Source: Clostridiales bacterium (GTDB lineage: Bacteria > Bacillota > Clostridia > Christensenellales > Aristaeellaceae). Taken from it: 64,000 nt of DNA. The stretch's first letter is position 1. Every line of letters starts with the position of its first letter. The notes beneath the pieces are model-generated. The model searched no databases. It saw nothing but the letters and a program-made list of their open reading frames with translations, and was not told the origin of the DNA. Position numbers and translations under genes: made by a program. This document shows positions 26,441 through 39,072 of this stretch, in pieces. The stretch spans positions 62,001 to 126,000 of the forward strand of contig SVHA01000001.1 in assembly GCA_015056085.1 (NCBI GenBank), written 5' to 3'.

Positions 26441-28017
26441 GCGTTTGCGCCTTTCTTTCTGCGACGGAGGGAGCGCAGGTCATCAGGGGTAACGGCCTTG
26501 ACTTCCAGAGCAGCCGCCACAAACACAACCACGCCCACAGCGACTTCCACCAGGGTAATCAGCCGGTGCTGGGGCAGAATGTGCCGCATCAGCAGCACGA
26601 CGGCGCCCATGGCGGCGGTGGCGATGCCGGGCCGGACGATCCAGCCCATCCAGTTCATGCGCACCTTGCCGAACTTCAGCACAAAGTAGAGGTTGGGCAC
26701 CAGCGACACGGTATAGCACACAAGGGATGCGATGGGTGCGCCGTGGATGCCGATTTCAGGCGTGCCCACCAGAATATAATTCAGGGCGATTTTGCACACC
26801 ACGCCGGCAATCAGCGTGTACATGGGGATGCGCTGATAATTCAGTCCCTGCAGGATGCTGCTGGTGGCCTGCACCACCGTGAAGAGCACCACCGTCAGGC
26901 TGGATACGCTCAGCAGTTCGCTGGCGATGGTCAGATGCTCAGGGGAGAGGGTCTCAGCATAGAAGAAGGAGACGATTTCCCGGGAGAGAAAACTCATGCC
27001 GATAGAGCAGGGGAAGCCGATGAGGAACGCAAACCGAAGGCCGAGATCGCTCTGGCGGGCCACGGTGTCATAGTCATCCAGCGCCCTCGCAGCGGAAATG
27101 GCGGGTACCAGCGACATCGAAACCGCCAGCGCCAGGGCCGTGGGCACGTTGATCAGCCGGATGACCAGCCCGGAGAACAGACCGTACACAGGCCGGGCCT
27201 GCTCGATGGTCATGCCGGTGGAGAGCATCCGCTCAATGAGCATGGAGGAGTCGATGGTCTGGGACAGAGGCACGATGCAGGCGCTGATGGTGATGGGGAT
27301 GGAGATGAGCATCAGCTGCCTGGCAATGCCCTTGCCGGAGGATTCTTCTTCGGTGGACAACTGGGGAATCTGGCTGAATACATACCTGCGGCGCAGGTAC
27401 AGCATGATCATGTAAACAAGGGCGACAAACTCGACGATCGTGATGCCCAGCAATGCGCCGGCAGCACCGTGGGCGATGCTGATCTGGGCGCCGAAATAGG
27501 CCAGGGGGAGGGAAATAAACACCTTGCCCACCTGTTCGATCAACTGGCTGATGGCCGTGGGCACCATGTTTTGCTGCCCCTGCATGAAGCCTCGGAAGGC
27601 AGACAGCACGCACACCACCGCAACGCAGGGGGCGATCACCTGGAAGCCCAATTGTGCTTCCGGTTGATTGACATGATCCGCCAGCAGAGGGCTGCCGCAG
27701 AGCATCAGCAGCGTGCAGATGCAGCCCAGCGCCGTCAGCAGGCACAGGGCAATGCGGAAGATCTTCTTGGCACTGCGGGGGTCATCGTGGGCAAGGGCAT
27801 GGGAAACCATGCGGCTCACCGCCACAGGCAGACCCGCAGAGGAAATTGTCAGAAGCAGATTATAAGTAGGAAAGACCGCCTGGAACACGCCCAGACCATC
27901 TGCGCCGATGATCCATGTCAGCGGAATGCTGAACAGGACGCCCACCAGCTTGCAGATGATCCCGGCCAGTCCCAGCACGGTCATACCGGCTACAATGGAT
28001 TTCGATTGCTTTCCCAT
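26437..28017 (-). CDS. yabM: MOP-family flippase (SpoVB/YabM-like)
   Basis: Polytopic membrane protein, 526 residues with about 14 hydrophobic segments, of the polysaccharide-export/MurJ-SpoVB superfamily. N-terminal features: GLAGIICKLVGVLFSIPL, then GLGVFQAVFPTYNLLLTIS and GLPVAVSRMVSHA. Relatives move lipid-linked cell-wall or cortex precursors. YabM of B. subtilis is the positional match (after spoVT, before yabN), while SpoVB is a close relative, so the exact name rests on synteny. It has its own promoter at 28050-28077. Confidence 0.88.
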   Translation of the reverse strand: MGKQSKSIVAGMTVLGLAGIICKLVGVLFSIPLTWIIGADGLGVFQAVFPTYNLLLTISSAGLPVAVSRMVSHALAHDDPRSAKKIFRIALCLLTALGCICTLLMLCGSPLLADHVNQPEAQLGFQVIAPCVAVVCVLSAFRGFMQGQQNMVPTAISQLIEQVGKVFISLPLAYFGAQISIAHGAAGALLGITIVEFVALVYMIMLYLRRRYVFSQIPQLSTEEESSGKGIARQLMLISIPITISACIVPLSQTIDSSMLIERMLSTGMTIEQARPVYGLFSGLVIRLINVPTALALAVSMSLVPAISAARALDDYDTVARQSDLGLRFAFLIGFPCSIGMSFLSREIVSFFYAETLSPEHLTIASELLSVSSLTVVLFTVVQATSSILQGLNYQRIPMYTLIAGVVCKIALNYILVGTPEIGIHGAPIASLVCYTVSLVPNLYFVLKFGKVRMNWMGWIVRPGIATAAMGAVVLLMRHILPQHRLITLVEVAVGVVVFVAAALEVKAVTPDDLRSLRRRKKGANA

Positions 28018-28049
28018 AGTACATCCTCACTTCTATTGTGTCACCTTCC

Positions 28050-28077
28050 ATTATACGCCTTCTTTGCCTTTTTGCAA
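28050..28077 (-). promoter_or_regulatory. promoter for yabM-yabN
   Basis: On the minus strand TTGCAA (28072-28077), 16-base spacer, TATAAT (28050-28055), 33 bases before the yabM start codon. Confidence 0.75.
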
Positions 28078-28083
28078 TACCTT

Positions 28084-28641
28084 TTACTGTTCCATCTGAC
28101 GGCCCACGATGCCGGCGGCGGTTTCTGCCACCTTCAGTTCCGTGTCGCCCATGCGGGTGCCCTGTTCACGGGAAAGCAGCAGTACGGCGCCGATGGCCTC
28201 GCCGTCAGCAATGATGGGAGACACCACCTGGGCGGTGTAGTTTTGTCCGTTGTCTTCCTCGGTGGTGACGGCCACGGTGCGTCCGCCGGCCTGGCGGTTG
28301 ATGGCCACCGTCTGGCGTGCGGCAATGGCGGACTCAATGTCGTGGGAAATGGGCTTGTCCCACAGTTCCTTGCGGCTCACGCCGCTGGCAGCCACCACCT
28401 GATCCCTGTCCACAATGCAGGCGATATGCCCCAGAGAGCGGAACAGCGACTCGGTGTAATCCTTGGCGAAGGAAGACATTTCTCCGATGGGGGAGTACTT
28501 CTTGAGGATGACTTCGCCGTCCCTGTCTGTGTAAATTTCCAGCGGGTCGCCTTCCCGAATGCGCAGGGTGCGGCGGATTTCCTTGGGGATGACGATGCGT
28601 CCCAGTTCGTCGATGCGGCGGACGATGCCTGTTGCTCGCAT
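28084..28641 (-). CDS. spoVT: stage V sporulation protein T
   Basis: Forespore transcription regulator, 185 residues. The N-terminal AbrB-type swapped-hairpin DNA-binding domain is residues 1-50 (GIVRRIDELGRIVIPKEIRR), and the C-terminal GAF-like domain is about 53-185. SpoVT modulates sigma-G genes in Bacillus and Clostridium, so the host probably forms endospores. The start at 28641 follows GGGAGG; the open frame before it is non-coding. A sigma-G-like promoter is visible upstream. Confidence 0.95.
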   Translation of the reverse strand: MRATGIVRRIDELGRIVIPKEIRRTLRIREGDPLEIYTDRDGEVILKKYSPIGEMSSFAKDYTESLFRSLGHIACIVDRDQVVAASGVSRKELWDKPISHDIESAIAARQTVAINRQAGGRTVAVTTEEDNGQNYTAQVVSPIIADGEAIGAVLLLSREQGTRMGDTELKVAETAAGIVGRQMEQ

Positions 28642-28674
28642 GAAAATGACCTCCCGATTTTTGAATTTCGACCT

Positions 28675-28705
28675 TAGTATGGTTTTCGGGAGGCAGAATA
28701 TCTCA
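28675..28705 (-). promoter_or_regulatory. possible sigma-G promoter of spoVT
   Basis: On the minus strand CATACTA (28675-28681) matches the sigma-G -10 consensus. TGAGATA sits 17 bases upstream and is a fair match to the -35 TGAATA. spoVT is sigma-G dependent in B. subtilis. No TATAAT-type site competes here. Confidence 0.5.
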
Positions 28706-28849
28706 TAAATTGCATGGAAAGTGATGGAAGAAGGCGTCTTAGTCAGTAAAATCATCTCTGTCAACAGAAAAAATGGCCGTATCTTGTGGCAAAATCACCC
28801 CGATTCGTCGAAAAAACACAATCAGTACAATTTTGGGCACGAAATACGC

Positions 28850-28878
28850 TTGACAATTCCTTTGTGCGGTGCTAAACT
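28850..28878 (+). promoter_or_regulatory. sigma-A promoter of the leader-paaK operon
   Basis: TTGACA at 28850-28855 and TAAACT at 28873-28878, 17 bases apart. Transcription from about 28885 gives a 375-base leader before paaK. Confidence 0.82.
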
Positions 28879-28955
28879 TGCGACAATCGATTCTGGATAC
28901 AATCTTGAAAGCAAGATGATCTTCCGGAAAATGTTTGAACAGGGAGGTGCGGGAA

Positions 28956-29117
28956 ATGAAGGCGATGCTGAGTCGTATTTGTGGAATGTCCCGCAACCAC
29001 TCTGCCCATACCATGAATCTGTTTGCCATGATGGAAGTGCGATTTTATGCGTACTTCTATTTTTACTTTTTTGGCTTTTTTGCAAACAGGACGCAAAGGA
29101 AACCTGCACTTGCCTGA
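28956..29117 (+). CDS. Phe/Tyr-rich attenuation leader peptide
   Basis: Short gene of 53 codons with GGGAGGTGC 6-14 bases before its ATG. Codons at 29043-29081 read FYAYFYFYFFGFF: seven Phe and four Tyr in 13 residues. The rest is unremarkable (MKAMLSRICGMSRNHSAHTM at the start, RTQRKPALA at the end). The hydrophobic aromatic run could be mistaken for a membrane helix, but the position is that of a leader peptide: a strong promoter just upstream, then an antiterminator segment within its last codons and a terminator 37 bases after its stop. I infer that ribosome stalling at Phe/Tyr codons controls read-through into the phenylacetate-CoA ligase gene. Confidence 0.82.
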   Translation: MKAMLSRICGMSRNHSAHTMNLFAMMEVRFYAYFYFYFFGFFANRTQRKPALA

Positions 29118-29185
29118 ACGTGACCTCAAGGTTGCGAGATTGTGAACACAAGCGCGGTTCCCTTTGCGGGGAGCCGCTCTTTTTG
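29092..29185 (+). promoter_or_regulatory. transcription attenuator: competing antiterminator and terminator stems
   Basis: Terminator: 29154-29162 pairs with 29169-29177 (9 bp, one G-U), followed by TCTTTTTG. Antiterminator: CGCAAAGGAAACC at 29092-29104 can pair with GGTTCCCTTTGCG at 29156-29168 (12 of 13 pairs), which removes the whole 5-prime arm of the terminator. The antiterminator's first strand starts 10 bases after the last Phe codon and lies inside the leader gene. A ribosome stalled on Phe/Tyr codons leaves it free (read-through), while a ribosome at the stop codon (29115-29117) covers it (termination). A weak 5-bp protector helix (29101-29105 with 29129-29133) is also possible. Confidence 0.82.
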
Positions 29186-29260
29186 TGGCTGCTGCCCTTG
29201 ACAGGCCGGCGGCAGGAGTACGCTGCAAGAGGGAGACATTACAAAACGGAGGGATCGACC

Positions 29261-30568
29261 ATGGAGAAGCGATATTACCAGCCCGAGATCGAAACCATGC
29301 CGGTGGCTGAGTTGCAAAAACTGCAGTCCGAAAAGCTGGTCAAGCAGGTCCGGCACGTTTACGACAACGTTCCTTACTATCGCCAGAAGATGGACGAGAA
29401 GGGCGTCAAGCCGGAGGACATCAAGGGTATCGAGGACCTGCACAAGCTGCCAACGATTACCAAAGGCGACCTGCGGGAAACCTATCCCTACGGTATGCTG
29501 GCCGTTCCCCTGGAAGATTGCGTGCGCATCCAGTCCACTTCCGGCACCACCGGCAAGCGGGTGATCGCCTACTACACCCAGAAAGACGTGGAACTGTGGG
29601 AAGACTGCTGCGCCAGAGCGCTGGTGGCAGTGGGCGCAACGAAAAAGGACGTCTGCCAGGTGGCGTACGGCTATGGCCTGTTCACCGGCGGCCCTGGCCT
29701 CAACGGCGGCTCCCACAAGGTGGGCTGCCTGACGCTCCCCATGTCCTCGGGCAACACCGAGCGGCAGATCCAGTTCATTCAGGACCTGCAGGCCACCATC
29801 CTTTGCTGCACTCCCTCCTATGCAGCCTACATCGGGGAAACGATGAAGGAAATGGGCATCAAACCAGAGGACAACACCCTCAAGGCCGGTATCTTCGGCG
29901 CAGAGCCCTGGACCGAAGAGATGCGCCGGGACATCGAAAAGTCCCTGGGCATCAAGGCCTACGACATCTACGGCCTGACGGAAACCTCCGGCCCCGGCGT
30001 TTCCTTCGAATGTGAAGCCCAAACGGGAATGCACATCTGCGAGGATCACTTCCTGGCAGAGATCATCGACCCGGACACCGAAGAGGTGCTGCCTCTTGGC
30101 AGCGTGGGCGAACTGGTCTTCACCAGCCTGGACAAGGAAGCCTTCCCGCTGCTTCGGTACCGCACCCGTGATATCTGCCGCCTGACCCGTGAGCCCTGCC
30201 CCTGCGGCAGAACGCACGTGAAAATGTGCAAGCCCATGGGCCGCAGCGATGATATGCTCATCATCCGCGGCGTGAACGTGTTCCCCTCCCAGATTGAAAC
30301 GGTGCTGATCAACGAGGGCTATTCCCCCAACTATCAGATCATCGTGGATCGTGTGAGCAACAACGATACCATTGACGTCAACGTGGAACTTTCTCCCGAA
30401 CAGTTCCACGATACCATCAAGGAAATCGCCAAGCTGGAAAAGAATCTGGAAGCGGCGCTGCGTACTATGCTGGGCATCGGCCCCAAAGTGCATCTGGTGG
30501 CTCCCAAGACCATCGCCCGCAGCGAAGGCAAGGCCAAGCGCGTCATCGACAACCGCAAGCTCCACTGA
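29261..30568 (+). CDS. paaK: phenylacetate-CoA ligase
   Basis: AMP-forming arylacetate-CoA ligase of the PaaK family, 435 residues, the standard length. The P-loop is STSGTTGKR at 92-100. Also seen are YDIYGLTETSGPG, the hinge region YRTRDICRLT and the C-terminal lysine region ARSEGKAKRVID. A CPCGRTH motif fits the family. In anaerobes such enzymes, usually beside an ACT protein, activate phenylacetate or indoleacetate in linkage with arylpyruvate:ferredoxin oxidoreductases, either in breakdown or in reductive synthesis of Phe/Trp. The start at 29261 follows GGAGG by 8 bases. The Phe/Tyr attenuator upstream favours a role in making aromatic amino acids. Confidence 0.93.
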   Translation: MEKRYYQPEIETMPVAELQKLQSEKLVKQVRHVYDNVPYYRQKMDEKGVKPEDIKGIEDLHKLPTITKGDLRETYPYGMLAVPLEDCVRIQSTSGTTGKRVIAYYTQKDVELWEDCCARALVAVGATKKDVCQVAYGYGLFTGGPGLNGGSHKVGCLTLPMSSGNTERQIQFIQDLQATILCCTPSYAAYIGETMKEMGIKPEDNTLKAGIFGAEPWTEEMRRDIEKSLGIKAYDIYGLTETSGPGVSFECEAQTGMHICEDHFLAEIIDPDTEEVLPLGSVGELVFTSLDKEAFPLLRYRTRDICRLTREPCPCGRTHVKMCKPMGRSDDMLIIRGVNVFPSQIETVLINEGYSPNYQIIVDRVSNNDTIDVNVELSPEQFHDTIKEIAKLEKNLEAALRTMLGIGPKVHLVAPKTIARSEGKAKRVIDNRKLH

Positions 30569-30617
30569 TTTTCTCAAGCGTTGCCTGAACGACCCGCTTT
30601 AAGGAAGGAGAATCCTC

Positions 30618-31049
30618 ATGTCAATCCATCAGCTGAACGTATTCGTGGAAAATCAGCAGGGTAAACTCTCCGCCATCACCAATCTTCTGAGCGATAACAA
30701 TATCGACCTCAAGACTCTCGTGCTGGCTGATGCTTCCGACTACGGCGTGCTTCGCCTGATTGTTTCCGATCCCGACAAGGCCATCAGTGTTCTGACCCAG
30801 AATGGTCTGATCGCCTCCAAGATCAAGATCACCCTGGCCCGCATCAAGCATCAGCAGGGCGGCCTCTCCTCGGTGCTCAAACTCATGGACCAGCATGGCA
30901 TCGACCTGTCCTATGTTTACGCCTTTGTGGCTACCGGCGGCCAGGAAGCCTTCGCCGCCATGCGATTTGACGATGCGGACAAGGACAAAGCCCTGCAGGT
31001 CCTCAAGGATAACAACATCGACCTGCTCAATGATATCTCGGAACTGTAA
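30618..31049 (+). CDS. ACT-domain amino-acid-sensing protein
   Basis: 143 residues made of two ACT domains: one begins INQLNVFVE-like (IHQLNVFVENQQGKLSAITN), the second is ITLARIKHQQGGLSSVLKLM. Stand-alone double-ACT proteins are habitual neighbours of paaK in anaerobes and are thought to bind aromatic amino acids and regulate the ligase or oxidoreductase. AAGGAAGGAG precedes the ATG. It lies 49 bases after paaK with no terminator between, so it is under the same attenuator. Confidence 0.92.
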   Translation: MSIHQLNVFVENQQGKLSAITNLLSDNNIDLKTLVLADASDYGVLRLIVSDPDKAISVLTQNGLIASKIKITLARIKHQQGGLSSVLKLMDQHGIDLSYVYAFVATGGQEAFAAMRFDDADKDKALQVLKDNNIDLLNDISEL

Positions 31050-31191
31050 CGCAAGGGAATCCCATTACTTATGTACGCAAGGGACCTTACATTCCTGTGA
31101 ACGAAGACCGTGACGCCATTGCCGCCTTCTCCAGCGAGCAGAATGCACTCGTTCCCTTAACAAATAAAAAACACAAAAAGGAGAAATCACC

Positions 31192-32163
31192 ATGAAGTCC
31201 ACTATCAAGAAGATCATCGCCCTGGTTCTCGCCGCTGTGACCCTTCTGTCTCTGACCGCTTGCGCCACCCCTGAAAAGGAAGACGGCACCTACTCTGTCG
31301 GTATCGTTCAGCTGATGCAGCACGTTGCGCTGGATCAGGCCACCAAGGGCTTCCAGGACGCCCTCACCGCCAAGCTGGGCGACAAGGTCACCTTCGATGT
31401 TCAGCTGGCCTCCGGTGAGCAGACCAACTGCACCACCATCGTCACCAAGTTCATCAACGACAAGGTGGATCTGATCATGGCCAACGCCACCCCCGCCGTC
31501 ATCGCTGCCAAGGAAGCCACTTCCACCATCCCGATCGTCGGCACCTCCGTCACCGACTATGTGGCCAAGGAAGCTGCCATCGTCGCCTCCAATGAGGCTC
31601 CCGGCGGCAACGTCACCGGCTACTCCGACCTGAGCGACATCGCTGCCCACGTGGATCTGAGCAAGAAGCTCTGCCCCGAAGCCAAGACCGTCGCCATCGT
31701 GTACTGCTCCGCCGAGCCCAACTCCGTCATTCAGGGCAATCAGGCTGAAAAACTCTTCGCCGAAGCCGGCTTCACCACCGTCACCCTGACCGCCAGCGAC
31801 GTGACCACCATCGCCAGCGTTGTCAACTCCGCCTGCTCTCAGGCTGACATGATCTACATCCCCACCGACAACCTGTTCGCTGAGAACATGGAAGCCGTCA
31901 AGAACATCGCAGAGCCTGCCAAGGTCCCCGTGATTTGCGGCGAAGGCGGCATGGTGCAGTCCGGCGGTACCGCCACTGTTTCCATCGACTACTACACCCT
32001 GGGCTTCCGTGCCGGTGAAATGGCCTACTCCATCATGGTGGAAGGCGCTGATCCCGCCAAGACCCCCATTGGCTTCATGACTGCTGATGACATGGAACTG
32101 GTCGTGAACGAGGAGAACATGGCGGCTCTGGGCCTGACTGTTCCCGAAGACATGAAGAAGTAA
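31192..32163 (+). CDS. ABC transporter substrate-binding lipoprotein (TrpX-like)
   Basis: 323-residue lipoprotein. Signal MKSTIKKIIA... ends in the lipobox LTAC with Cys24. The fold is the ABC_sub_bind/DUF534 family (PF04392), with VGIVQLMQHVALDQATKGF at the start and IPTDNLFAENMEAVKN later. Members near aromatic genes are annotated as tryptophan/tyrosine transport (TrpX). The ligand cannot be read from the sequence, but linkage to paaK-ACT suggests an aromatic amino acid or aryl acid. AAAAAGGAG lies before the ATG. A strong hairpin follows it. Confidence 0.88.
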   Translation: MKSTIKKIIALVLAAVTLLSLTACATPEKEDGTYSVGIVQLMQHVALDQATKGFQDALTAKLGDKVTFDVQLASGEQTNCTTIVTKFINDKVDLIMANATPAVIAAKEATSTIPIVGTSVTDYVAKEAAIVASNEAPGGNVTGYSDLSDIAAHVDLSKKLCPEAKTVAIVYCSAEPNSVIQGNQAEKLFAEAGFTTVTLTASDVTTIASVVNSACSQADMIYIPTDNLFAENMEAVKNIAEPAKVPVICGEGGMVQSGGTATVSIDYYTLGFRAGEMAYSIMVEGADPAKTPIGFMTADDMELVVNEENMAALGLTVPEDMKK

Positions 32164-32182
32164 TCCCATCAAACAAAATGAA

Positions 32183-32225
32183 AGCAGCACCGTGCGGGAC
32201 TTTGCGGTCCCGTCTGGTGTGCTGT
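32183..32225 (+). other. hairpin between binding-protein and permease genes
   Basis: GCAGCACC...GCGGGAC pairs with GTCCCGT...GGTGTGCTGT around a TTTGCG loop; no T tract follows. Such stems after binding-protein genes often protect the upstream mRNA, giving more binding protein than permease. Confidence 0.6.
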
Positions 32226-32277
32226 ATCCGACCGGGTATTTCGGGCGGATATCATCACCACGGAGGTGTTTCCGACC

Positions 32278-33189
32278 ATGTTTCTGACCCAAATGCTGAA
32301 CATGATGCCTGACGCTGTGGCGCAGGGATTGATCTGGGGCATTATGGCCCTGGGGCTGTACATCACCTATAAGGTGCTGGATTATTCCGACCTGACGGTG
32401 GACGGCTCCATCGTCACCGGCGGCGCTGTGGCAGCCCTGCTGATTTTGAACGGCGTGCCTATGCCCATTGCCATCGCTGCAGCCTTTGCTGCCGGTGCGC
32501 TGGCGGGCCTTGTGACGGGCCTTTTGCATACACGCCTGGGCATCCCGCCCATTCTGTCGGGCATCCTGACGCAGCTGGGACTGTACTCCATCAACCTGCA
32601 CATCATGGGCAAGTCCATGCTGGCTGTCAGCGTGGACAAGTATCCCTTGCTGGTGTCTGTCCGCAATCAGGGGCAGTCCTGCCTGGTGGCTCTGGCCTTT
32701 GTGGTGGTCATCATCGGGCTGATGTACTGGTTCTTCGGCACAGAACTCGGCTGCGCCGTGCGTGCCACCGGCGCCAATGCCGCCATGAGCCGTGCCCAGG
32801 GCATTGACACCAATAACACCAAACTGCTGGGGCTGGTGCTGGGCAACGGCCTGGTGGGCATCAGCGGTGCGCTGTACACCCAGTATCTGGGCAGCGTGAC
32901 GGTGAACATGGGCCGAGGTGCCATTGTGATCGGTCTGGCGGCTGTCATCATCGGTGACGTCCTCTTCGGCAGGCTGTTCTCAAACTTTGCGCTGAAACTT
33001 CTCTCCGTCGTCATCGGCGCCATTCTCTATTATGTGGTGATTGCCCTGGTGATTCAGCTGGGCCTGAACACCGACGACCTGAAGCTGTTCTCCGCTGCCT
33101 TCGTGGCAGTGTTCCTGGCCATTCCTCATCTGAAGGAACTGCACCATGCCCATCATAAGAAGAAGGGAGGTTCCGTCCGCCATGCTTGA
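32278..33189 (+). CDS. ABC transporter permease (TrpY-like)
   Basis: 303 residues, hydrophobic throughout, of the BPD_transp_2 family (PF02653) that includes LivH/RbsC-type permeases. It begins with GLIWGIMALGLYITYKVLDY, followed by DLTVDGSIVTGGAVAALLI, and has an EAA-like loop around RAQGIDTNNTKLLGLVLGNG. GGAGGTG lies 9 bases upstream of the ATG at 32278; an in-frame GTG at 32266 overlaps this site. It overlaps the ATPase gene by 8 bases. Confidence 0.92.
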   Translation: MFLTQMLNMMPDAVAQGLIWGIMALGLYITYKVLDYSDLTVDGSIVTGGAVAALLILNGVPMPIAIAAAFAAGALAGLVTGLLHTRLGIPPILSGILTQLGLYSINLHIMGKSMLAVSVDKYPLLVSVRNQGQSCLVALAFVVVIIGLMYWFFGTELGCAVRATGANAAMSRAQGIDTNNTKLLGLVLGNGLVGISGALYTQYLGSVTVNMGRGAIVIGLAAVIIGDVLFGRLFSNFALKLLSVVIGAILYYVVIALVIQLGLNTDDLKLFSAAFVAVFLAIPHLKELHHAHHKKKGGSVRHA

Positions 33190-33976
33190 TATCAAATCGA
33201 TTTCCAAGACGTTCAATCCCGGCACGGTGAATGAAAAAAAGGCGCTGGACTGTGTGTCCCTGCACCTGAATGAAGGCGAATCCGTGGCCGTCATCGGCGG
33301 CAACGGCGCCGGCAAATCAACCCTGATGAACGCTGTGGCGGGCACCTGGTATGTGGATGAGGGCAACATCACGCTGGATGGCGTGGACATCACCTACCTG
33401 CCGGAACATAAGCGTGCCAAGTATATCGGACGTGTGTTCCAGGACCCCATGATGGGCACCGCAGCCACCATGCAGATTGAAGAAAACCTGGCTCTCGCCC
33501 TGCGCCGTGGGCAGAACCGCACCCTCCGCGGCGGCATCACCAAGGCGGAAAGGGAGCAGTTCCGTGAACTGCTCAAAACCCTTGATCTGGGTCTGGAAGA
33601 CCGCATGACCACCAAGGTGGGCCTGCTCTCCGGCGGTCAGCGTCAAGCGCTGACGCTGCTGATGGCCAGTCTGGTCAAGCCCAAACTCCTGCTGCTGGAC
33701 GAGCACACCGCCGCCCTTGACCCCAAAACGGCGGCGAAGGTGATGGCTGTCACCCGCACCATTGTCAACCGGGACAAACTCACCACGCTGATGATCACCC
33801 ACAATATGCGTGACGCCATCGAGTATGGCGACCGGCTGATTATGCTCTATGAAGGCCGCATCGTGCTGGACATCGCCGGTGAGGAAAAGCAGAAACTGGC
33901 TGTGGAAGACCTGCTGAAACGCTTTGGTCAGGCTACCGGCTCCGACGAAGCCGACGACAAGCTGCTGCTGTCCTGA
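33182..33976 (+). CDS. ABC transporter ATP-binding protein (TrpZ-like)
   Basis: 264 residues. Walker A GGNGAGKST at 39-47, signature LLSGGQRQALTLLMA, Walker B LLLLDEHTAALDP and the switch THNMRDAIEYG. Completes the importer of the two preceding genes. The start at 33182 (GGAGG 11 bases upstream, inside the permease gene) gives MLDIKSISKTF. A GC-rich terminator follows. Confidence 0.95.
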   Translation: MLDIKSISKTFNPGTVNEKKALDCVSLHLNEGESVAVIGGNGAGKSTLMNAVAGTWYVDEGNITLDGVDITYLPEHKRAKYIGRVFQDPMMGTAATMQIEENLALALRRGQNRTLRGGITKAEREQFRELLKTLDLGLEDRMTTKVGLLSGGQRQALTLLMASLVKPKLLLLDEHTAALDPKTAAKVMAVTRTIVNRDKLTTLMITHNMRDAIEYGDRLIMLYEGRIVLDIAGEEKQKLAVEDLLKRFGQATGSDEADDKLLLS

Positions 33977-34003
33977 TGGCATTTCTACCCAACAAAATAT
34001 CAA

Positions 34004-34041
34004 CCGCCCGCCGGACAAATTCATCGGCGGGCGGCTTTTCG
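34004..34041. terminator. terminator after the ABC importer
   Basis: CCGCCCGCCG at 34004-34013 pairs with CGGCGGGCGG at 34025-34034, followed by CTTTTCGTTT. On the minus strand the tail is TTGATATTTTGTTG, so it may also serve the convergent gene ending at 34109. Confidence 0.85.
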
Positions 34042-34108
34042 TTTGCCTGCGGTGGATGGTAATGAAAAGGCGCTGCATAACAGCAACGACTGAAAGGGCA
34101 GGGGAGAA

Positions 34109-35281
34109 TCAGAGGTCGCCGCGGCTCAGGGCAGCCAGCAGCAGGTTACGCAGCTTGCCTACCGCTTCGTGAGCGCAGCACCAGATGGTGTTGTACATCA
34201 CCAGCATGGAGAAGTTCTCCTTGGGGAAGCAGTAGAAATCCGTGCCCAGCATACCGCCCCAGCCGAATTCACCTTCCTTTGCCAGGCCGGGATACTGTGC
34301 GGGATCTACGCACACCCGGGAGAGGCAGCCGAAGCCATGTCCCCACATATGGGGCCACAGGCCGGTCTTTTCCTGCTCGGTGAGGTGGTTGGTGGTCAGA
34401 TACCTGACCGTTTCCGGGGAGAGAATGTGCTTGCCGTTGTAGCAGCCGCCGTTCAGCATCATCTCAAGGAAGTGGCTGTAATCGTCAATGGTGGACACGA
34501 GGCCGGCGCCGCCCGCCTGATAGGCAGGTTCCCGGCTGTATTCACCAATGCCCATGTGCAGGGAATTCCACTCCTGCAGGCCGTCGGGGCTGCAGCTATA
34601 TGCCTTGACGAAGCGATCCTGCTTTTCTTCCGGCACATAGAAGGCGGTGTCCTTCATGTCCAGCGGAATAAAGAATTCATCCCGGAGGAAATCGCCGAAG
34701 CGCTTGCCGCTGGCTACTTCCACCACAGCCGCCAGCACATCGGCGCAGATGGAATACCGCCAAACGGTGCCCGGCTCTGCTGCCATGGGCTGCTGGCCCA
34801 TCATGTTCATCAGTTCCACCGTTGGGATGCCGCCGCCCGCACGGATAGCCTCGTTGGCCTTTTCAAACACGCCCTTGACCAGCAGCCCGGAGGGATCGTC
34901 ATCGGCATAGGCCAGACCGCCGCACATATTCAGCAGATCCCGCAGATTGGGTGTGCGGGAGGCAGGATGGATGGTGCCGTCCGATTCGATGATCTTCGGG
35001 TCACGGAAACCGGGGAGATACTTCTCCACGCCGTCCCGCAGGTCGATCACGCCCCGCTCAGCCAGAAGCATCACAGCGGCGGCGGTAATGGGCTTGGTCT
35101 GGCTGAAAAGGCGGAAAATGTTGTCCCTTTGGAGGGGCTTGTTGGCGCCGATGTCGGAAAGGCCTACCTGGGTATACAGGGCTTCTTTGCCGTTGTGCAT
35201 CACTAGCAGATTCATGCCGGAGCAAAGCTTCCGATCCACCATGTCCTGCATCAGCTGCTGGGCTTGCCTGATCAGTTCCAT
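34109..35281 (-). CDS. beta-lactamase-family serine hydrolase
   Basis: 390 residues, PF00144. SxxK motif SQTK at 60-63 (FRLFSQTKPITAAAV); the YxN position is YSI (WRYSICAD), so the second motif is altered. The C-terminal HGFGCLSRV region has the usual spacing. No signal peptide. Such proteins often act as esterases, which would fit the neighbouring acyl-esterases and glycosidases. The start is the ATG at 35281, spaced 9 bases from AAAGG; an ATG at 35290 directly abuts that site. Probably co-transcribed with the SGNH gene 34 bases upstream. Confidence 0.87.
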   Translation of the reverse strand: MELIRQAQQLMQDMVDRKLCSGMNLLVMHNGKEALYTQVGLSDIGANKPLQRDNIFRLFSQTKPITAAAVMLLAERGVIDLRDGVEKYLPGFRDPKIIESDGTIHPASRTPNLRDLLNMCGGLAYADDDPSGLLVKGVFEKANEAIRAGGGIPTVELMNMMGQQPMAAEPGTVWRYSICADVLAAVVEVASGKRFGDFLRDEFFIPLDMKDTAFYVPEEKQDRFVKAYSCSPDGLQEWNSLHMGIGEYSREPAYQAGGAGLVSTIDDYSHFLEMMLNGGCYNGKHILSPETVRYLTTNHLTEQEKTGLWPHMWGHGFGCLSRVCVDPAQYPGLAKEGEFGWGGMLGTDFYCFPKENFSMLVMYNTIWCCAHEAVGKLRNLLLAALSRGDL

Positions 35282-35315: not shown

Positions 35316-35978
35316 TCAAAGTTCTTCCAGGAAGTGACCGATGCGGCGGGCCAGCCACTCATGACCAAAGTCTGTGGGGTGGAGGCTGTCCACGGTCATC
35401 TTGCGGAGATTCACGGAATTTTCCGGGTAAAAACCGCTTTCGGAATACAAATCCAGCACCGGCAGGGCGTAAACTTCCGCCACTTCCACCAGAATGTCCC
35501 GGTAGGTTTTCAGCGTTGCGACGCTCAGGGGCTTTGTCAGCGCCTGATCTCCGGTGGGGCTGTCCTCAAATACACGGTGCAGGGGTGTAACGATCACCAC
35601 GGGCTTGCCGGCATAGCGGGTGAGCAGCTCGTTCATCAGATAATGGCAGGCGCCGTAGAAAGTGTCAGGTGTACGGTCCGTGGGAACACCCAGGGGCGCT
35701 TCACCGTGACCGTAATCGTTGGTGCCGCCAAACACCACCACGGCGTCAGCGGATTCATCCATTTGCTCCAGGCGCATACAGAAGTCCTCGTCCGTGGAGG
35801 CCTTCGTTACCACCCGCTGGCGTGCGATGCGGGTGCCTGACTTGCCATAGTTGTTTGCTTTCTTCAGACCGAACATTTTCTCCAGACGACCCACATAGCC
35901 ATTGGCGTGATCGCTGGCGCCCAGCCCTTCGGTGATGCTGTCGCCCAGAAAGTTGACGGTGGCGTTTTTCAGGTTCAT
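35316..35978 (-). CDS. SGNH/GDSL hydrolase (copy 1)
   Basis: 220 residues of the SGNH esterase fold, cytoplasmic (no signal peptide). Block I FLGDSIT with the catalytic Ser, block III GGTND, and block V DSLHPTDFGH with the Asp-x-x-His pair. It is a clear paralogue of the three genes at 37774-39757: shared DESADAVVVFGGTND, PLGVPTDRTPDTFYGACHYL and LLTRYAGKPVV. It likely removes acetyl or other acyl groups from imported sugars or oligosaccharides. Transcribed divergently from the GH43 operon from its own promoter. Confidence 0.9.
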   Translation of the reverse strand: MNLKNATVNFLGDSITEGLGASDHANGYVGRLEKMFGLKKANNYGKSGTRIARQRVVTKASTDEDFCMRLEQMDESADAVVVFGGTNDYGHGEAPLGVPTDRTPDTFYGACHYLMNELLTRYAGKPVVIVTPLHRVFEDSPTGDQALTKPLSVATLKTYRDILVEVAEVYALPVLDLYSESGFYPENSVNLRKMTVDSLHPTDFGHEWLARRIGHFLEEL

Positions 35979-36046
35979 AATGATGCCTTCTTTCGATGGC
36001 AGGGGCGCAATTCAGCCGATTTTGATGCCCTGCCGTTCTGCCTCTT

Positions 36047-36075
36047 ATGATAACAAAAAAATCTGTAATTTGCAA
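36047..36075 (-). promoter_or_regulatory. promoter of SGNH copy 1
   Basis: On the minus strand TTGCAA (36070-36075), 17-base spacer, TATCAT (36047-36052). Only 20 bases separate it from the -35 of the divergent promoter. Confidence 0.6.
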
Positions 36076-36095
36076 CACAAATTGATGGGAATTGA

Positions 36096-36124
36096 TTGAC
36101 AAATAACAGGGAAGGGGATAGAAT
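36096..36124 (+). promoter_or_regulatory. promoter of the GH43-SGNH operon
   Basis: TTGACA at 36096-36101 and TAGAAT at 36119-36124, 17 bases apart. Confidence 0.82.
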
Positions 36125-36192
36125 GAAGGGGACATTGAGACCGGATATTCTTGATATACTTGTATCTGCTTGTGAACAGAAGGAGGCCGCTT

Positions 36193-37755
36193 ATGAAGCA
36201 GCTTGTCAACCCCATTCTCCCCGGTTTTTATCCTGATCCTTCTATCCTGCGGGTGGAGGATGACTTCTACATGATTACCTCCACTTTCTCCTATTACCCG
36301 GGCATTCCGGTATTCCACAGCCGTGACCTGCGCCACTGGGAGCAGATCGGTCATGTGCTGGACAGGCCTTCCCAGATTCCCCTGGACTGGCGCAATATCT
36401 CCTGGGGCATCTATGCGCCCACGCTGCGCTTCCATAACGGCCTGTACTATATGATCACCACCAATATCGGCGGCGGTGACAATTTCGTCTGCACCGCTGA
36501 ACATCCTGCCGGCCCCTGGAGCGAACCCCACTGGATCGCCAATGCCCCCGGTATTGACCCGACCCTGTTCTGGGATGACGACGGCGCCTGTTATATGATG
36601 GCGACCGGGCATGACGAAAAGGGTCAGGGCATCTGGATGAGCCGCTTTGACGATGAAAAGTTCTGCATTGTGGGCGAGCGCCGCATTGTCTGGCACGGCG
36701 CCATGCAGAATCCATGGGCGCCGGAAGCGCCTCATGTGTATAAGAAGGACGGCTGGTACTACCTCATGATCGCCGAGGGCGGCACGGAGCATTATCATTC
36801 CGTGAATATTGCCCGCTGCAAGGACATCATGGGTGATTACACCGGCTATCAGGGCAATCCCATCGTGACCCATCGTCACCTGGGAGACAGTTATGCTATC
36901 TGCAATGTGGGTCATGCCGATCTGGTGCAGCTCAAGGACGGCAGCTGGTACATGGTGTTGCTGGGTTCCCGCACCTATGGCGGCTATCACAAGAATATGG
37001 GCCGTGAGACCTTCATCGCCCCGGTGGACTGGTCCGGCGACTGGCCGGTGGTCAGCCCCGGAACGGGCCGCATTGAGTGGACGTATCCCGCCCCGGAACT
37101 GCCTGACTTCTATGTGGAAAAGAAGGACGAGGACGATTTCACCTCCATGGTGTGGAACACCCTGGGCACGCCGGTGAACCATGAATACCGCGTTGACGGT
37201 GAGAAACTGTACATCCGCTGTCAGGCCAAGGGCGTTGTGCCGCCGGTGGAGGCTCCCCAGGAGCCACTGCCCAACGGCGCTCTGGGCTTCTATGGCCGCC
37301 GCCAGCAGCATATGCACTTCTCCGCTTCCGTCACTGCGACCCTGCCGGAACTGCCTTCTGCCACCTGCGGCATGACGATTCTCCAGCACGACTTCGCCCA
37401 GATTCGTATCGAGATGCTCCATGGCGAAAAGGGCGTCACCGTCCGGGCTGTCAAACAGTACATGACCGGCCAGTGGAGCACCCCCGACTGGAGGCGGGTC
37501 GTGGAAATCAAGGGCGAAACGGTGATTGCTGACGCCACCGCCCGTTTGGAGATCCTCGCTGATGGTCAGGAACATCACCTCATCTGCAATGGTGAAGAAG
37601 TGGCTGTTATCAACGGCGGTTTCCTGGGTAGCGAAAGTTGCGGCGGCTTCGTGGGCGCCTACATCGGCTGCTTTGCCTCCGGCAACGGCGTGGAGAGCAA
37701 CGAGGAAGCGTGCTTTGTCAACTTCAGCTACAAGGGCATCGAAGAAGCGCTGTAA
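36193..37755 (+). CDS. GH43 beta-xylosidase/alpha-L-arabinofuranosidase
   Basis: 520 residues without a signal peptide, so it acts on imported oligosaccharides. The five-bladed propeller contains the catalytic set: base Asp15 in FYPDPS, pKa-modulating Asp122 in GIDPTLFWDD and acid Glu178 in WAPEAPH. The C-terminal about 200 residues form the beta-sandwich typical of GH43 xylosidases (LGFYGRRQQHMHFSASV, then GGFVGAYIGCFASGNG). AGGAGG is 7 bases before the ATG at 36193. First gene of an operon with three SGNH hydrolases, which suggests work on acylated xylan or arabinoxylan fragments. Confidence 0.93.
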   Translation: MKQLVNPILPGFYPDPSILRVEDDFYMITSTFSYYPGIPVFHSRDLRHWEQIGHVLDRPSQIPLDWRNISWGIYAPTLRFHNGLYYMITTNIGGGDNFVCTAEHPAGPWSEPHWIANAPGIDPTLFWDDDGACYMMATGHDEKGQGIWMSRFDDEKFCIVGERRIVWHGAMQNPWAPEAPHVYKKDGWYYLMIAEGGTEHYHSVNIARCKDIMGDYTGYQGNPIVTHRHLGDSYAICNVGHADLVQLKDGSWYMVLLGSRTYGGYHKNMGRETFIAPVDWSGDWPVVSPGTGRIEWTYPAPELPDFYVEKKDEDDFTSMVWNTLGTPVNHEYRVDGEKLYIRCQAKGVVPPVEAPQEPLPNGALGFYGRRQQHMHFSASVTATLPELPSATCGMTILQHDFAQIRIEMLHGEKGVTVRAVKQYMTGQWSTPDWRRVVEIKGETVIADATARLEILADGQEHHLICNGEEVAVINGGFLGSESCGGFVGAYIGCFASGNGVESNEEACFVNFSYKGIEEAL

Positions 37756-37773
37756 CAGACGGGAGGAATGAAC

Positions 37774-38430
37774 ATGGATATCCGCAACACGACCATTAAT
37801 TTCCTGGGGGACAGCATCACCGCCGGCTTTGGCTGCTCCGATTGGTGCAACCGCTTCACCGATTTGCTGGTGAAGGACTACGGCGTGAAGAAGGCCAATA
37901 ACTACGGCATCTGCGGCAGCCGGTTTGCCCAGCAGCTCAACGATAAGGGCGAAGTGGTGGATCAGGACTATTGCATGAGGCTGGAAGAAATGGACGAATC
38001 CGCCGACGCTGTGGTGGTTTTCGGCGGCACGAATGACTTTGGTCACGGCACGGCCCCGCTGGGCGTGCCCACCGACAGGACGCCCGAAACATTCTGGGGC
38101 GCCTGCCATTATCTGATGAATGAACTGCTGACCCGCTATCCCGGCAAGCCTGTGGTGTTCCTCACGCCCCTGCATCGCCTGAATGAAAATGACCCCAAGG
38201 GCGACGGCTCCAAGAAGTTCTCCGTGGCGCCGCTGAAGGTGTATCGGGACATCATCATCGAAGTGGCTGCCCAGTACAGCCTGCCTGTGCTGGACCTGTA
38301 TGCCACCAGCGGTATGCAGCCGGAAAATGAAGCCTGCCGCAATGCACTCATCCCTGACGGTCTGCACCCCAATGATGCCGGTCATGTCATACTGGCAAGG
38401 CGGATCGCCAACTTCCTGGCGAAGGTGTAA
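37774..38430 (+). CDS. SGNH/GDSL hydrolase (copy 2)
   Basis: 218 residues, no signal peptide. Ser in FLGDSIT, GGTNDFGHG, and the DGLHPNDAGH block complete the SGNH set. Most similar to copy 4 (39101): both have TPLHR followed by NENDPKGDG, a KKFSVAPL stretch and YATSGMQP. The ATG at 37774 is 7 bases from GGGAGG; one at 37768 is too close. Probable sugar O-acetylesterase. Confidence 0.9.
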   Translation: MDIRNTTINFLGDSITAGFGCSDWCNRFTDLLVKDYGVKKANNYGICGSRFAQQLNDKGEVVDQDYCMRLEEMDESADAVVVFGGTNDFGHGTAPLGVPTDRTPETFWGACHYLMNELLTRYPGKPVVFLTPLHRLNENDPKGDGSKKFSVAPLKVYRDIIIEVAAQYSLPVLDLYATSGMQPENEACRNALIPDGLHPNDAGHVILARRIANFLAKV

Positions 38431-38445
38431 GGGGAGGGCAGAGCG

Positions 38446-39072
38446 ATGAATCTGACAGGCGCAACCATCAACTTCATGGGTGACAGCATCACCGCCTTCA
38501 GCGAGGAGGGCAAACTCTCCTATGTTGATGTGATGGTCAAGGAATACGGCCTGAAAAAGGCCAACAATTATGCCATTGGCGGCAGCCGTCTGGCGAAGCA
38601 GAAGAACGGCTACCTCGACTGGGATTGCTGCGCGCGAATTCACGACATGGATAAGGACGCCGACGCCGTGGTCATCTGGGCTGGTACCAATGACTGCTCC
38701 AGCGGCGACGCACCTCTGGGCTCTCCTGCGGACAGGACGCCTGCAACCTTCTGGGGCGCCTGCCACTACATCATGAATGCCGTGATGAATGACTTTGCGG
38801 GCAAGCCGATTCTGGTGATTTCCCCCATGCATTGCGGCACGGAACTGAACTACAACGAGTGCAGCAGTGCCCCGCTGACGGTGTACCGGGACATCCTCAT
38901 GGCGGTGGCGGAGTATTACGCCCTGCCGGTGCTGGATATGTATGCGGAAAGCCTGTTGCAGCCTGCCAATGAAACCTGCCGGGAGCGCCTCATGCCCGAC
39001 AGCCTTCATCCCAACGACGCCGGACATACCATGATCGCCCATCGTGTGGCTCATGCGCTGGAAGAACTTTGA
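38446..39072 (+). CDS. SGNH/GDSL hydrolase (copy 3, divergent)
   Basis: 208 residues. The catalytic blocks are kept (FMGDSIT, AGTND, DSLHPNDAGH), but the loops differ from its neighbours: GTNDCSSGDAPLGSPADRT and a shorter region after SPMH. It is the shortest and most diverged of the four paralogues and may have a different acyl substrate. It lies 15 bases after copy 2 with GGGGAGG before its ATG. Confidence 0.9.
   Translation: MNLTGATINFMGDSITAFSEEGKLSYVDVMVKEYGLKKANNYAIGGSRLAKQKNGYLDWDCCARIHDMDKDADAVVIWAGTNDCSSGDAPLGSPADRTPATFWGACHYIMNAVMNDFAGKPILVISPMHCGTELNYNECSSAPLTVYRDILMAVAEYYALPVLDMYAESLLQPANETCRERLMPDSLHPNDAGHTMIAHRVAHALEEL

Follow-up and report, generated by a model that had tools for sequence, protein, structure and literature searches.

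Leader attenuators with a Phe-rich peptide control pheA and pheST in Gammaproteobacteria. Leader peptides of this general kind also occur in Bacillota. His leader peptides replace T-boxes on the same gene family in Bacillus hisS*/hisZ (PMC2965389), and a Leu-rich leader attenuator of Staphylococcus aureus ilv-leu is supported by mutants (PMC5794164). In addition, the uORFC-13-1 motif before Acholeplasma aroF was proposed to be a Phe uORF with an adjacent terminator and 'at least one' Phe codon (PMC8632094). On the metabolic side, rumen bacteria have long been reported to form Phe from phenylacetate (PMC7356843, citing Allison 1965), and a 2026 paper argues for synthesis in Bacteroides from ligase energetics (PMC13285125).

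The window analysed here is a stretch of 64,000 nucleotides from a Clostridiales bacterium that belongs to a group of uncultured gut Clostridia. Upstream of its paaK gene, the region 28850-29185 contains the following elements, all on the + strand:

28850..28878, +, sigma-70-type promoter TTGACA-17-TAAACT (consensus scan, 10/12)
28942..28947, +, Shine-Dalgarno sequence GGGAGG of the leader gene (read directly)
28956..29117, +, leader peptide gene of 53 codons (ORF; similar leaders in 11 relatives)
29030..29061, +, hairpin where the aromatic run begins, candidate pause hairpin (fold; putative pausing role)
29043..29081, +, sensor of 13 codons, 7 Phe and 4 Tyr (leader codons 30-42)
29092..29104, +, antiterminator strand 2, within the leader gene (also present in relatives)
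29119..29136, +, small hairpin between strands 2 and 3, right behind the stop codon (fold)
29156..29168, +, strand 3, partner of strand 2: extends from the terminator 5′ arm over the loop to the first bases of the 3′ arm
29154..29185, +, intrinsic terminator: hairpin 29154-29177 and U-run

In the promoter, the spacer is 17 nt, a TG precedes the second hexamer and TAAACT ends at 28878. The leader peptide reads MKAMLSRICGMSRNHSAHTMNLFAMMEVRFYAYFYFYFFGFFANRTQRKPALA up to the stop codon at 29115-29117, and its sensor codons 30-42 spell FYAYFYFYFFGFF. Strand 2 begins 10 nt past the last Phe codon (codon end 29081, strand start 29092). Strand 2 (CGCAAAGGAAACC) and strand 3 (GGTTCCCTTTGCG) are complementary at 12/13 positions, with one A.C mismatch, and the terminator hairpin 29154-29177 has 10 pairs followed by TCTTTTTG. 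Because both structures use 29156-29168, antiterminator and terminator are mutually exclusive. The original prediction had named a consensus promoter, a leader gene with a ribosome site and 7 Phe plus 4 Tyr codons in 13, an antiterminator pairing 12 of 13 bases between 29092-29104 and 29156-29168, and a mutually exclusive terminator at 29154-29185; every one of these was recovered at the positions listed, the promoter by its 10/12 score and the antiterminator by direct reading.

At equilibrium, free RNA 29082-29185 adopts the terminator fold at -35.2 kcal/mol. The segment 29091-29170 with strands 2 and 3 paired reaches -30.1, and would be the first to form during transcription. As the terminator fold is favoured at equilibrium, antitermination would depend on the co-transcriptional sequence of events. 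The window has what an attenuator is expected to have: a short ORF with a ribosome site, a run of regulatory codons and predicted translation; an intrinsic terminator ahead of the first structural gene; an antiterminator that shares a strand with the terminator and is suitably placed relative to the leader stop; and, in relatives, a conserved leader and helices with compensatory changes in helix 2:3, which are weaker in the uncut alignment described below. The T-box family RF00230 had no match in the window at the gathering score and, with E values up to 10 admitted, none in 28800-29300. Rfam gave only two sub-threshold snoRNA matches in 28800-29300, and a reading of the leader as a T-box or as another Rfam element was rejected for want of a significant match.

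We consider it very probable that a ribosome-mediated attenuator that senses aromatic-tRNA charging, for Phe and probably for Tyr as well, controls paaK, and that it serves a phenylacetate-to-Phe route. With charged tRNA in good supply, the ribosome would run to the stop codon at 29115-29117 and hide part of strand 2, and the terminator at 29154-29177 would form. A ribosome at this stop codon should cover the 3′ half of strand 2. When charged tRNA is scarce, the ribosome would halt on codons 30-42; given the spacing from 29081 to 29092, strand 2 should lie beyond the reach of a ribosome held there and stay free. The free strand 2 would pair with the 5′ arm and loop of the terminator, and RNA polymerase would continue into paaK. 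The ligase would activate scavenged phenylacetate or 4-hydroxyphenylacetate, from which an indolepyruvate-type ferredoxin oxidoreductase (IOR) working in the carboxylating direction would make phenylpyruvate, and hence Phe. Such control suggests a ligase that builds amino acids rather than degrading them.

Downstream of the leader, the following genes lie on the same strand:

29261..30568, +, paaK-like arylacetate-CoA ligase, 435 aa
30618..31049, +, double ACT-domain protein (PF19571)
31192..32163, +, TrpX-like substrate-binding protein, possibly in the paaK operon
32266..33189, +, ABC permease
33146..33976, +, ABC ATPase, whose start may be further in

The ligase matches PF00501 and PF14535 but scores 534.8 bits against the PaaK equivalog TIGR02155, below the curated cut-off of 646.3, so that it is a member of the family for which phenylacetate is one candidate substrate among the arylacetates. 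Similarly, the substrate-binding protein scores 238.5 bits against the TrpX equivalog NF041285, below the cut-off of 390. No promoter-like or terminator-like sites were found on the + strand in 30500-34300, so paaK through the ABC genes may form one operon, and the attenuator probably also governs the ACT protein and the ABC transporter. An ABC substrate-binding gene beside paaK was seen in no other locus examined, many of which have short flanks. Elsewhere in the same genome (L104, G000 C5:35896-39141), a T-box read as UGG (Trp) directly precedes a TrpX-like gene with 29% identity to the window's 31192-32163; with this relative under a Trp T-box, Phe, Tyr or arylacetates are the likelier substrates of the transporter that follows the aromatic leader. 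A search for prephenate dehydratase (PF00800) that matched 14/14 control genomes had no match in the window's genome, and chorismate synthase is present there. As the genome is 94.84% complete, the absent dehydratase may sit in a gap. The window also has two very long open frames at 26566-28677 (+) and 35755-39054 (-), of 703 and 1099 codons, the former antisense to a 526-codon frame; both are probably a by-product of base composition.

A search for PaaK in the 308 genomes of the window's GTDB family (E up to 1e-100) gave matches in 216. Window-type leaders were not found elsewhere upstream of the window's own PaaK subfamily among the paaK regions examined. They were found upstream of a second subfamily that shares 56-59% identity with the window PaaK, at first in 5 of 20 upstream regions. 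Searching with one second-subfamily PaaK (60/308 genomes at E up to 1e-200) showed them at 11 of the best 30 loci (L295-L304, L310), which agrees with the conservation of the short gene and its stems upstream of paaK on which the original prediction had staked itself. A twelfth locus, L305, has the terminator on a contig that ends 127 nt upstream. An aromatic-rich frame was present at 15/30 loci, of which L311, L316, L322 and L323, without a terminator, were dismissed by eye; a further check of these four agreed. The peptides of the relatives align with that of the window at 16-36% identity (for example, MKQRSNLYSVFSLYLSAVMENAARFFEGLFFWFFGFIFTCLPIRKKQLA), and several have residues in common outside the aromatic run as well, for instance a basic C terminus. 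All keep the window's geometry: strand 2, within the ORF or at its end, is complementary to a stretch that runs from the terminator's 5′ arm through the loop into the beginning of the 3′ arm. The letters of the strands differ, being CCCATCCGAAAGA with TCTTCCGGATGGG in L295 compared to CGCAAAGGAAACC with GGTTCCCTTTGCG in the window.

Helix 2:3 was compared in 10 distinct rows including the window, L296 and L297 being identical to L295. In a hand-cut alignment, for which the register of the window, L303 and L304 was chosen by hand, 9/13 pairs are changed on both sides and 86.8% of the cells are paired; 0/500 shuffles match this, and a one-column slide destroys the pairing. In the uncut MAFFT alignment, which misaligns the window row, 4/13 pairs are changed on both sides (62/500 shuffles have as many) and the covariation score is equalled by 42/500 shuffles, with 80.6% of the cells paired (12/500 shuffles) against at most 61.3% in slid registers. 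When the ten relatives are taken singly, strand-2 pairing is above shuffles in 10/10, with 0 to 9 per 1000 shuffles as high. The terminator helix, uncut in 12 rows, has 96.9% of its cells paired and one pair changed on both sides (82/500 shuffles); cut to seven pairs, it has two such pairs, and 63/500 shuffles do as well. Compensatory changes were to be looked for in both stems: they are present in helix 2:3 of the hand-cut alignment and weaker in the uncut one, whereas the terminator helix is conserved but hardly covaries.

A second family of attenuators emerged from 192 oriented regions upstream of paaK that were scanned for three-strand attenuators. In this set L173 duplicates L044, the pairs L027/L165, L042/L172, L040/L170, L074/L192, L075/L187 and L078/L194 each represent one contig twice, and L144 and L145, from two genomes, are identical over the last 250 nt. 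A further 11/80 upstream regions could not be oriented and stand outside the 192; scanned on both strands, they gave no attenuator match. The scan was a relaxed one, stricter versions (short loops or eight contiguous strand-2 pairs) having missed most cases. It also returned loci without an aromatic leader; the final 25 were chosen by eye, and L157 was added by eye. Thus defined, a three-strand attenuator with an aromatic leader occurs in 25/192 paaK regions, namely the window and 24 others, and these 24 have Phe-run leaders with the residues AMD at the end or inside.

The AMD-family leaders are mostly short (MYSAAFFFSSIAMD, MKSFAAIFFFTKSAMD, MRLYTAFFFTRSAMD, MFSNYFYFYFTKAMDCCIDRA and similar), with 14 to about 30 residues depending on the start chosen, and what stays constant among them is the aromatic run together with the strand-2 codons. 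Strand 2 is GCGATGGAT in nearly all of them. Its place within the ORF varies from the stop codon itself to about nine codons ahead of it, and as judged by eye it starts mostly 6-9 nt past the last Phe codon. Strand 3 is ATCCACCGC or ATCCATCGC, and strand 4, with U's behind it, usually reads GCGGTGG or GCGATGG. The hairpin between strands 2 and 3 keeps its pairing while its letters vary, by eye, among GCGC/GCGC, ACGC/GCGT, GCGT/ACGC and GCAC/GTGC. One position of the terminator stem, C-G in most loci, is a T-A pair in L031 and an unpaired C.A in L044. Rfam leader-peptide families gave no match in the window, nor in nine AMD-family loci (E up to 0.01).

Across the 308 family genomes, the AMD attenuator pattern occurs at 27 places in 25 genomes, compared to one match of a reversed control among the genomes listed. 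A leader is present at 23 places: paaK follows at 19 of them and a prephenate dehydratase gene at three, and the remaining one (L253) lies at the end of a contig; L264, L265, L266 and L268 have no leader and were taken as chance matches. At L269 (leader MRPYVSGFFFSRSAMD) the attenuator precedes a prephenate dehydratase confirmed by Pfam, with a DAHP synthase in the next open frame (Pfam). At L245 and L252 (leaders MFANSYYYFYSPAMDG and MFAYSYFYFYSIAMDS) it precedes a fused chorismate mutase-prephenate dehydratase, recognised by Pfam as CM_2 and PDT; the next frame resembles AroB by eye, and Pfam on 90 residues gave sub-threshold Fe-ADH matches only. Phe-run or Tyr/Phe-run AMD attenuators at L245, L252 and L269 offer a compact marker of an aromatic biosynthesis regulon in these Clostridia.

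In other relatives the same genes carry T-boxes. A T-box lies directly upstream of ten other paaK genes, at L002, by Rfam at L169, L176, L179, L186, L196, L203 and L238, and by the motif only at L189 and L190, and the specifier is UUC (Phe) in 10/10. The motif accepts GGTGG and AGTGG forms, and missed L186, an Rfam T-box. The 192 paaK regions divide by upstream class into attenuator (25), T-box (10), iorB directly upstream (84), other (71), too little sequence (1) and duplicate (1), the 71 having neither a recognised regulator nor iorB. Before ior-paaK operons, the specifier of the T-box motif was read as UUC in 11/80 loci, with UUU (also Phe) possible in some; these ior-operon T-boxes were identified by the motif only, except for L002 and the one in the window's own genome. 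Among 12 genus-level regions there is one T-box with a UUC specifier and one with UAC. The genome of the window itself (L121, G000 C23:124000-136500) has a T-box read as UAC (Tyr) ahead of an acyl-CoA ligase, an SSS symporter, iorA and iorB, a predicted tyrosine or 4-hydroxyphenylacetate branch. With IOR under a Tyr T-box and paaK under the leader, two parts of the predicted pathway in one genome would respond to aromatic tRNA via different RNA devices. According to the original prediction, known Phe-type leaders are mostly proteobacterial and Bacillota usually use T-boxes; the His and Leu leader peptides are precedents in Bacillota.

Five genomes have two PaaK copies each: G159, G345, G372 and G493 (L203, L196, L189, L176 and L138, L139, L204, L137), and G007 (L086, L095). 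In the four g6 genomes (G159, G345, G372, G493), one copy has a Phe T-box directly before it; the second copy lies behind iorB in G159, G345 and G493, and is without a recognised neighbour or regulator in G372. In addition, a 6S RNA match (62.8 bits) lies about 108 nt upstream of a same-strand T-box at L103 (G000 C10:341469-344672).

Three other readings of the window leader were weighed against control by tRNA charging. That an aromatic-rich frame merely happens to lie in a U-rich stretch beside an ordinary terminator has a very small probability. Phe codons do arise from U-rich tracts, yet 11 F/Y per 13 codons were reached in 0/2000 dinucleotide shuffles of 28765-29260, with a shuffle maximum of 6, and a chance ORF was rejected on this ground. 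When the window was divided into 500-nt tiles, two tiles scored 11 F/Y and the runners-up 6. Six consecutive F/Y codons, frame ignored, match at 6 places in the 2.08-Mb genome, two overlapping here and four in a single poly-T tract; the backwards control of this pattern, with 8 matches in the genome, speaks for chance. So does the 12/13 complementarity of strands 2 and 3 taken alone, which is moderately unusual, being equalled in 33/5000 shuffles. As it is not so rare by itself, this part of the case is carried by conservation in relatives, 11 of which have similar leaders and rebuilt helices. A less far-fetched, though still improbable, reading is an arrest peptide, in which the nascent chain with bound phenylacetate or free Phe would stall the ribosome in the manner of TnaC and Trp, and the ligase would be induced by its substrate. 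The AMD leaders, much shorter and constant in the aromatic run and the strand-2 codons, argue against it; in its favour are the length of the window leader (53 codons), the residues that several relatives share outside the aromatic run, and the action of the paaK product on an arylacetate. Moreover, the AMD attenuator before prephenate dehydratase genes and the Phe T-boxes that replace the attenuator elsewhere both fit tRNA charging.

Marginally less probable than the arrest peptide is a catabolic role, in which PaaK and IOR would yield arylacetates by oxidising aromatic amino acids, and the leader would have another role such as translation coupling or operon shut-off. T-boxes reading Phe or Tyr precede paaK and ior, however, and in transcriptional T-boxes uncharged tRNA raises expression. 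One attenuator family is also common to paaK and prephenate dehydratase genes. PMC13285125 has points for either side: IOR is oxidative in fermenting organisms, whereas AMP-forming ligases favour acyl-CoA synthesis and Bacteroides IOR with an AMP-forming ligase may be biosynthetic. Control by aromatic tRNA charging had been taken at the outset to mark a biosynthetic ligase, and the Phe T-boxes on paaK together with the attenuator common to prephenate dehydratase genes lend support to this view.

To follow the history of the attenuators, we placed 22 attenuator rows on a tree of 94 PaaK proteins, none of them from the second subfamily. Four changes are needed, at least three of which are forced by well-supported branches, and the attenuators fall beside L004 (the window), in the L031-L044 pair and in a large clade of mostly genus g4. 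This history may be one gain with losses. Nevertheless, GCGATGGAT is common to distant PaaK branches and to prephenate dehydratase genes, and the window-type leader to two PaaK subfamilies, from both of which attenuators seem to move between genes. A broader picture, which we regard as evenly balanced between right and wrong, is a whole arylacetate-to-amino-acid regulon, in this family of Clostridia, wired to aromatic tRNA charging by interchangeable RNA devices. Upstream of paaK and ior, Phe/Tyr T-boxes and two leader attenuators without shared strand sequences would stand in for each other; one of the two attenuators would also act on prephenate dehydratase genes, and the attenuators would travel as cassettes. 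The window organism, in which no prephenate dehydratase was detected, would take Phe from the phenylacetate of its neighbours, and its ABC transporter would import Phe, Tyr or arylacetates, not Trp.

The pairs of IOR and arylacetate-CoA ligase in gut bacteria may serve either to make aromatic amino acids or to break them down. Control by Phe/Tyr tRNA charging, through T-boxes and two kinds of leader attenuator, would be independent evidence of synthesis. A gene-by-gene test becomes possible, as the leader or T-box would indicate both direction and amino acid. The findings also give two leader-attenuator families in Clostridia, and add cases of exchange between leader peptide and T-box on one gene, as reported for the hisS family (PMC2965389). 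In the literature searched by title and start of abstract, neither arylacetate-CoA ligases nor IOR were described as targets of a T-box or of a Phe/Tyr leader attenuator, with subscription journals mostly outside its range, and a word search of the main text of a T-box survey (PMC2494555) gave no phenylacet- or ior-. With the mechanism known, including the His and Leu cases of Bacillota, and the target unreported in the literature searched, paaK would be an informative new target for a known mechanism.

Compared to the pheA and pheST attenuators, the window shares the Phe-rich leader and the mutually exclusive antiterminator and terminator, but differs in its lineage (Bacillota), its mixture of Phe and Tyr codons and its arylacetate-CoA ligase target. 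It resembles the Bacillus hisS*/hisZ leaders as an ordinary Bacillota leader peptide that replaces T-boxes, differing in amino acid and genes, and the S. aureus ilv-leu attenuator in leader-peptide transcription attenuation in Bacillota, which there concerns branched-chain amino acids. With uORFC-13-1, a proposed case, it has in common a Phe uORF and a terminator before an aromatic biosynthesis gene, whereas the one-Phe minimum, the gene and the lineage are different. The Phe/Tyr T-boxes (RF00230) bind tRNA directly and have no match in the window; nevertheless, they share with the window leader the tRNA-charging signal and, in relatives, paaK and ior as targets.
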